DNA of 64,000 bases from positions 3,720,001-3,784,000 of the forward strand of contig NC_020520.1 of NCBI RefSeq assembly GCF_000348785.1, given 5' to 3'. Source of the stretch: Ilumatobacter coccineus YM16-304 (GTDB lineage: Bacteria > Actinomycetota > Acidimicrobiia > Acidimicrobiales > Ilumatobacteraceae). The translations under genes and the position numbers were made by a program. The notes below the pieces were generated by a model. It had not been told where the DNA came from, ran no database searches, and worked only from the letters and a program-made list of their open reading frames with translations. Below, piece by piece: positions 21,886 through 23,127 of this stretch. The stretch's first letter is position 1, and each line of letters begins with the position of its first letter.

Positions 21886-21993
21886 TCACGACCACATCGA
21901 GCCAGTCCAAAAATCACCCCCACGCGACCACATCGAGCCTGGCCAAAACTCACCCCCACGCGACGACATCGAGCCTGGGCAGAAATCACCCTC
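21886..21993 (+). repeat. 36-bp tandem repeats upstream of RAYT 1 (3 units)
   Basis: Units start at 21886, 21922 and 21958. Each is ACGCGACGAC (or a variant), a 6-base segment (ATCGAG in all three), then CCTGGGCAGAAATCACCCCC (or a variant). The unit nearest the transposase gene is almost identical to the downstream units; the farthest has decayed most. They share orientation with the downstream array. Confidence 0.9.
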
Positions 21994-22034
21994 ACCGTTT
22001 TCCCTTTTCCGCTGCTCACGACCCTCTGTCGGTC

Positions 22035-22865
22035 ATGCCGAGAAAACACAAGGAACTACATGCCACTCCCATGCTCCACGTCGTCAGCCGTGGGGTCGAC
22101 CGTCAGGACGTGTTCGAACGCCCGAGTGATCGAGCCATCTTCGAACGACGGCTCGACGATGCGTTTCGCAAACACCAGGTCGAGTTGCTGGCGTACGCCT
22201 GGATGACCAACCACGTTCATGCGCTCGTTCGCAATCGCGACGGCGACGTGTCAGCCGCGATCGGCGAGACGCTCGGGCTCTACGCTCGACACTTCAACGC
22301 CATCACCGACCGAGTAGGTCCGCTCTGGGAGCCACGCTTCTGGGCGACACCGATCGAGAGCGATGCGCAGCTCTTGCAGACCGTGAGATACATCCATCGC
22401 AATCCGCTGGAGATCACGGGGACGTCGAAGCTGGTCGAGTATCCGTACTCAAGCTTCGCGGTGTACACCGGCGAGCGCCGAGCACCGGCGATGCTCTGCA
22501 CCGACCCACTCGAACGACTCCTCGACCCGGTCCGACATCGCAAGCGCGTTCTTCGACCCCAGCGTGGTGACCGGCTGCCGTTCGCGTTCTTGCCGCCGCA
22601 GACGACCACATCCCTCGACGAGATCAGGCTCGCCGTCGAGTCGGTCGTCGACGCAGCCCCCACCACACGGCTTCCGACCCGGCTCGTCACGATTCTCCTG
22701 GCGGTGGAGCTCCGAGCCGGCACGACTGCGGAGATCGCCGCCGCGCTCGCCATCGACGAGGGCACCGTGCGCAACAAGGCACACCTTGCTCGACGACGAC
22801 TCGCCAGAGACCCCCGCTTCCAGATCCTCCGCCAGCGGATCTTCGACAGCCTCCCCGTGCGCTGA
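22035..22865 (+). CDS. REP-associated tyrosine transposase (RAYT 1, Y1/HUH family)
   Basis: 276 residues. The N-terminal Y1-transposase domain has LHVVSRGVDRQDVF, the HUH metal motif His-Val-His in YAWMTNHVHALV, and the catalytic Tyr in TVRYIHRNPLEIT. The C-terminal extension has a predicted helix-turn-helix (TTAEIAAALAIDEGTVRNKA) as in many RAYT proteins. These enzymes nick single-stranded repeat DNA and are thought to spread REP-like repeats. The gene is intact and sits inside an array of 36-bp repeats, three units before and seven after, all in the same orientation. No clear Shine-Dalgarno precedes ATG 22035. Domesticated rather than a classic insertion sequence, as there are no IS200 end hairpins. 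Confidence 0.88.
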   Translation: MPRKHKELHATPMLHVVSRGVDRQDVFERPSDRAIFERRLDDAFRKHQVELLAYAWMTNHVHALVRNRDGDVSAAIGETLGLYARHFNAITDRVGPLWEPRFWATPIESDAQLLQTVRYIHRNPLEITGTSKLVEYPYSSFAVYTGERRAPAMLCTDPLERLLDPVRHRKRVLRPQRGDRLPFAFLPPQTTTSLDEIRLAVESVVDAAPTTRLPTRLVTILLAVELRAGTTAEIAAALAIDEGTVRNKAHLARRRLARDPRFQILRQRIFDSLPVR

Positions 22866-22875
22866 CCCTCGAGCC

Positions 22876-23127
22876 ACGCGACGACATCGAGCCTGGGCAG
22901 AAATCACCCCCACGCGACGACAATTTGCCTGGGCAAAAATCATCCCCACGCGACGATTCTGAGCCTGGGCAGAAATCACCCCCACGCGACGACATTTGGC
23001 CTGGGCAGAAATCACCCCCACGCGACGACAATTTGCCTGGGCAGAAATCACCCCCACGCGACGACATCGAGCCTGGGCAGAAATCACCCTCACGCGACGA
23101 CATTTGGCCTGGGCAGAAATCATCCTC
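22876..23127 (+). repeat. 36-bp tandem repeats downstream of RAYT 1 (7 units)
   Basis: Seven units with an exact 36-base period starting at 22876, 22912, 22948, 22984, 23020, 23056 and 23092. The constant parts are ACGCGACGAC and CCTGGGCAGAAATCACCCCC. The 6 bases between them vary but are drawn from a small set: ATCGAG (units 1, 6), AATTTG (2, 5), ATTTGG (4, 7), and TCTGAG in unit 3, where the preceding C is T. The period is a multiple of three and the units lack stops in several frames, so peptide-like readings arise, but no ribosome binding site supports translation. Confidence 0.93.

Follow-up and report, generated by a model that had tools for sequence, protein, structure and literature searches.

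RAYT enzymes of the REPtron type are encoded by a single-copy gene that lies beside dispersed intergenic repeats, the REPs, BIMEs and REPINs (PMC3116915). In TIRtrons, which were described together with their GGGGWSAS motif by Di Nocera 2013 (PMC3733652), the TIRYT is likewise a RAYT-like HUH enzyme with a Y---NP motif (Y1 subclass 2.1; Quentin 2018, PMC6006769) that has repeats on both sides, and TIR families can be dispersed (PMC3733652). The subclass 2.1 genes themselves are described as having no REP-like sequences nearby (Quentin 2018, PMC6006769). IS200/IS605 elements, which use HUH/Y1 chemistry, are described as using the lagging-strand template both for excision and for insertion, which ties their orientation to replication (PMC5371812). 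Direction by replichore has also been recorded for the tandem REP arrays of SBW25, where five at about 2 Mb are forward and six at about 4 Mb are reverse (Bertels and Rainey 2011, PMC3116915), and the directionality reported below is thus not wholly new. Here we analysed a stretch of 64,000 nucleotides from Ilumatobacter coccineus YM16-304 (NC_020520.1, positions 3,720,001 to 3,784,000; the window), in which a RAYT-like gene is surrounded by tandem repeats belonging to a genome-wide family. The arrays of this family are a variation on the known RAYT-type systems, from which strict replichore polarity and recognisable end units set them apart; no description of them was found in the titles and abstract openings of open-licence literature on RAYT, TIRYT, Ilumatobacter, IS200 and replichore repeats. 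Borg tandem repeats were set aside as an analogue, because repeat sequences within one Borg are described as almost always unique.

The gene at this locus (window positions 22035 to 22865, + strand) encodes a RAYT/TIRYT-like HUH tyrosine transposase of 276 aa (Pfam Y1_Tnp, 4e-10). Its HUH motif is H60-V61-H62 (22212 to 22220, +) and its catalytic tyrosine motif is Y119---N123-P124 (22389 to 22406, +); H60, H62, Y119, N123 and P124 are all invariant in an alignment of 12 relatives. Y---NP is the signature of class 2 (PMC6006769), and by these motifs the gene is identified as a class 2 Y1 (RAYT-type) HUH enzyme. The family profile matched one relative of solved structure, PDB 4er8, TnpArep (8.4e-5). 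The score against NCBIfam REP_Tyr_transpos was 64.4 bits, under the cut-off of 80, and for this reason we call the enzyme RAYT-like, outside that equivalog. Residues 212-256 (22668 to 22802, +) form a predicted C-terminal helix-turn-helix matching Pfam Sigma70_r4_2 (6.6e-6; score 26.1 bits, cut-off 25.7). In this tail the enzyme resembles subclass 2.1 and TIRYT proteins, for which Quentin 2018 names other helix-turn-helix profiles (PMC6006769). A PHROGs search returned one family of unknown function, and a contig scan of other genomes returned three distant proteobacterial loci.

No second copy of the gene was found in the genome. Four other RAYT-like genes are 33-36% identical to it in the matched parts, and those inspected adjoin other repeats. 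One of them lies in the same window (36494-37264, – strand; 35% identity over part of the length). Three further RAYT-like genes, L073, L078 and L081, lie near positions 1023602, 3329207 and 2039258 of the I. coccineus genome and are each flanked by their own palindromic repeat family, of which those of L078 (37 matches) and L081 (131 matches, both palindrome strands counted) are dispersed. The window also holds an ORF of 2547 aa (13160-20803, –) whose translation suggests a surface protein rich in repeats, with a Thr-rich stalk and a C-terminal LPTTG-like motif ahead of a hydrophobic stretch.

Ten 36-bp units surround the transposase gene within positions 21886 to 23127, all on the + strand: three upstream (21886 to 21993) and seven downstream (22876 to 23127). 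The count, the single orientation and the 36-base period agree with the first-pass annotation, as does the view that a RAYT-type gene in a tandem array is an unusual organisation. That annotation had also called the repeats exact, which holds for the period, since spacing is exactly 36 inside either block, and fails for the sequence: the units are similar rather than identical, and the two blocks are out of phase, their neighbouring cores at 21974 and 22892 being 918 bases, or 25.5 x 36, apart. A search of the window with the core CCTGGGCAGAAATCACCCCC at up to three mismatches gave nine matches, compared with none in 100 shuffles; the tenth unit, the first of the upstream block, diverges beyond this threshold. 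The description of the units as nearly hairpin-free is correct in part, as a residual dyad is retained: of 14 arm positions, a mean of 6.0 can pair in one block and 7.4 in the other, relative to 3.9 in random 40-mers of the window. Both neighbours of the locus are on the – strand; from reading their translations, one is folD-like and the other inositol-3-phosphate-synthase-like.

A genome-wide search showed that the array is not local to the gene. With up to two mismatches allowed, the core has 240 matches in the genome (one contig of 4,830,181 bases), and the reversed control has none. We recovered 45 arrays of this family (family A), holding 249 units, at 1 to 10 units each, and 225 of the 240 core matches; the remaining 15 matches (3 forward, 12 reverse) were not placed. 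All but one of the arrays (44 of 45) have two or more units, at a spacing that is nearly always 36 bases. They lie between genes, with an overlap never above 9 bases with any gene called by our own codon-usage script, which is not a published gene finder. The RAYT-like gene therefore sits inside its own repeat family, dispersed between genes, as in a REPtron. It differs from a REPtron in the repeat: the window unit has neither a GTAG-tagged symmetric hairpin nor an inverted REP doublet (cf. PMC3116915), no conserved GTAG is visible by eye in the unit consensus, and the REP hallmark of a palindrome with GTAG or GTGG at the hairpin foot is absent. Across the arrays whose direction follows their replichore (concordant arrays, defined below), the dyad is weak, with a mean of 6.9 of 14 pairs, and the lagging-strand template has G or T at 25 of the 36 consensus positions. 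Read on this strand, the consensus contains GGGGTGAT, by eye one base off the TIR motif GGGGWSAS (PMC3733652). The flanks described for TIRtrons are inverted; those in the window are tandem arrays in direct orientation. Relative to IS200/IS605, no LE-gene-RE unit was found here in several copies, and the non-coding arrays far outnumber the gene. A known structured RNA was rejected: the two matches obtained were at chance level (E 0.19 and 0.92), both far under the gathering scores.

The arrays have distinct ends. When units were typed by leave-one-out, the best match to the first type was the unit that stands first in 21 of 34 arrays, and in 27 of the 34 the best match to the last type was the unit that stands last. 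The chance level is 6.1, and the largest value in 40 order shuffles was 11; the typing excluded the four discordant arrays, two atypically spaced arrays, the two blocks of the window and arrays of fewer than three units. In arrays away from the gene, first units carry 5.65 and last units 5.38 mismatches to the consensus, compared with 4.23 for middle units, and first and last units each have a consensus of their own. The increase of sequence decay upstream of the gene had been taken as a sign of growth near the gene. We rejected this, because edge units diverge in arrays elsewhere too: the upstream decay is a generic edge effect.

Models trained on the other arrays typed the window units as first, middle, middle upstream of the gene and as six middle units followed by a last unit downstream. 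The outermost upstream unit scored –12.3 as first and –19.7 as middle. The downstream inner edge was clearly assigned (middle –6.7, first –10.2), whereas the upstream inner edge, unit 3, was close (middle –6.8, last –7.4). With units of the edge types at the outer limits and middle types next to the gene, the RAYT-like gene most likely sits inside one single array.

Units were compared further in 39 concordant arrays, a set that leaves out the four discordant arrays and two concordant ones of atypical spacing. Similarity was equal within and across replichores (.813 and.814), and identical units occur on both. By this equal likeness and these shared units, the units form one exchanging pool regardless of replichore. 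Adjacent units are more alike (.875) than units of different arrays (.813).

The direction of the arrays follows the replichore in 41 of 45 cases (two-sided p = 9e-9), a property of the whole genome that is not visible from the window alone. In this the arrays behave as described for IS200/IS605 elements (PMC5371812). The origin was placed at the contig start by dnaA, dnaN and recF, named from reading translations, and the terminus at the only dif-like site in the genome (2.872 Mb, 3 mismatches). Before this site, 21 of 22 arrays are on the – strand; after it, 20 of 23 are on the + strand. The dif-like site (L142, genome positions 2871867-2871888, –) is far from the antipode of dnaA, and replichores measured by it would be unequal, at about 2.87 and 1.96 Mb. 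Moving the terminus through nine positions between 2.3 and 3.2 Mb left concordance at 39 to 41 of 45. For GC3 skew the best-fitting switch lay at 3.84-4.04 Mb (gain 11.5 log units), for which concordance would be 36 of 45; it conflicts with the dif-like site, and we set it aside in favour of dnaA and the dif-like site, because the GC3 sample covered fetched regions only and the strand differences were small. Nor is polarity a by-product of gene direction, since the concordant arrays occur in all four gene contexts (15 convergent, 11 divergent, 8 codirectional and 7 antisense).

Closer to the origin, concordant arrays become denser (KS p = 0.009; mean relative distance 0.40). This density bears on the idea that the arrays are polar sites useful to the host and held by selection, comparable to KOPS and other strand-biased chromosome-organising motifs, with the RAYT having only seeded them. 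Such sites would fit the polarity of 41 of the 45 arrays, the conservation of the core and a period that hardly varies. KOPS-type motifs are enriched towards the terminus, the opposite of the distribution seen here. Taken with the comparison of congeners given below, this makes selected host sites quite unlikely in our judgement.

The four discordant arrays lie at 182.9, 3157.0, 3833.5 and 4184.5 kb, and the one at 3833507 has ten units. They are more palindromic than the concordant arrays (9.0 and 6.9 of 14 pairs, respectively; p = 0.002), which, for four arrays singled out post hoc, is a lead only. In the concordant arrays, folding energy is lower for the lagging-template strand, with an asymmetry no greater than composition gives in slide controls. 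An asymmetry in G.T wobble pairs was likewise rejected as proof of one-strand selection, as slide controls match or exceed the counts.

Polarity might also arise if insertion were random in direction and wrongly oriented arrays were then lost through fork stalling, deletion or harmful rearrangement. The strand-dependent composition of the unit, with G or T at 25 of 36 positions, could make stability depend on direction. The existence of a discordant array of ten units speaks against such loss, as do two other repeat families of the same genome: these are palindromic and more strongly hairpin-forming, and neither has clear polarity, with 14 of 27 clusters concordant in family C and 33 of 53 in family D (p = 0.098, counted from 100 listed of 131 matches, one listed site with a changed loop excluded). 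We therefore consider selective loss unlikely. Strict polarity is so far a feature of one family in one genome.

Comparison with relatives indicates how the family has changed. The core has only 0 to 2 stray matches in each of nine congeners (genomes 69-99% complete), and homologues of the enzyme at 1e-20 occur in 13 of 395 genomes of the class, its own included. In one congener, G002, the same two neighbour genes enclose a RAYT that is 43% identical. This syntenic RAYT is flanked by 33-bp arrays whose sequence is unlike that of the window and which are dispersed in G002; the regions fetched there (drawn from 100 listed of 132 matches) contain at least 18 arrays of two units or more. The linkage of array and gene that the first-pass annotation had proposed is thereby borne out. 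From the regions of the matches listed, 16 G002 array places were mapped to the I. coccineus genome (G000), on the assumption of conserved gene order and with L182, L190 and L194 resting on one flank. At two of the 16, the RAYT locus and a place at 2024 kb, I. coccineus also carries a family-A array; at the other 14 no array was found here, the nearest recovered array being at least 2.5 kb away, although individual places might be altered by the 15 units left unplaced. A junction of 10 bp in I. coccineus holds three units in G002. Judged from these array-less counterparts and the 10-bp junction, the divergence of the species has evidently been followed by gains or losses of arrays, which means that arrays move. 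In G002, two contigs (L182 and L191) start inside what appears to be a single transporter gene, with an array on either side.

A core confined to one species, and congener arrays that differ in sequence and mostly in place, are also difficult to reconcile with sites maintained for the host. The G002 arrays, which are palindromic, show no clear polarity: 6 of 12 that were oriented and mapped are concordant among the matches listed, with orientation read by eye from spacers (L187, L189, L193, L196 and L197 were not orientable; L195 and L198 fell outside the mapping). In a single-contig genome from another genus of the family, G041, the RAYT is flanked by inverted tandem arrays. Its dispersed element of about 180 bp (L284-L302) has many copies, with ends that read as inverted repeats and a left arm that is often tandem at 28-44 base spacing. 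Inverted flanks are thus present in G041, and also in G002, unlike in the window. Orientation in G041 has a weak bias, 35 of 54 concordant among the matches listed (p = 0.04; 100 listed of 110 matches, 2 of 56 clusters ambiguous, terminus taken opposite dnaA). A stronger polarisation obtained by typing ends on one T/C base was rejected, as the whole-element profile gave only this 35 of 54.

The syntenic RAYT of G002 and the RAYT of G041 are thus both flanked by tandem units of dispersed families. This makes it very improbable that the arrays are ordinary tandem repeats grown by slippage, beside a RAYT by coincidence. Slippage would account for adjacent units being somewhat more alike than units across arrays; by itself it gives no dispersal into gene junctions, no end units and no polarity.

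The same flanking in G002 and G041 argues for arrays that are themselves mobile. So do the dispersal of the family, its gain or loss between congeners, polarity in all four gene contexts, units pooled across replichores, recognisable ends, the middle types beside the gene, the density near the origin and the invariant HUH and Y---NP residues, with IS200/IS605 as precedent. On balance, we think it probable that what moves is the array, with the RAYT gene as its cargo, the other arrays being gene-less copies mobilised in trans. On our best reading, drawn by analogy with IS200/IS605, a TIRYT-like RAYT would spread whole arrays via ssDNA of the lagging-strand template. We infer that the enzyme acts on the arrays and that lagging-strand ssDNA is its substrate. 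The HUH/Tyr enzyme would cut the G/T-rich array strand exposed as ssDNA on the lagging-strand template. Weak hairpins in successive units would hold the resulting piece, which would then be joined into other lagging-strand-template ssDNA between genes. Because the strand left and the strand entered would be alike in kind, the transfer would preserve direction relative to the fork. Unit number and content would afterwards change by recombination among arrays and local duplication. Against mobile arrays stand the families without strict polarity (C, D and those of G002 and G041), the four discordant arrays and the lower concordance under the GC3 terminus.

The contrast between the polar, weakly palindromic family and the palindromic families that are not polar suggests that loss of symmetry makes polarity visible. 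More tentatively, and with some doubt, we propose that this is a lineage of HUH tyrosine transposases whose mobile unit is not the single hairpin but an entire tandem array with specialised end units. With the dyad symmetry of the units lost, only one strand would be a substrate, and insertions would therefore record the direction of the fork genome-wide; the palindromic sister families, with both strands usable, would not.

The arrays bear on how RAYTs spread REP-type repeats, and they raise the question of whether substrate asymmetry turns a coupling to the lagging strand into visible polarity, for which a polar family beside palindromic families without clear polarity in the same cell is a natural comparison. 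The syntenic RAYT of G002, with its wholly different repeat, makes the co-evolution of enzyme and repeat testable.
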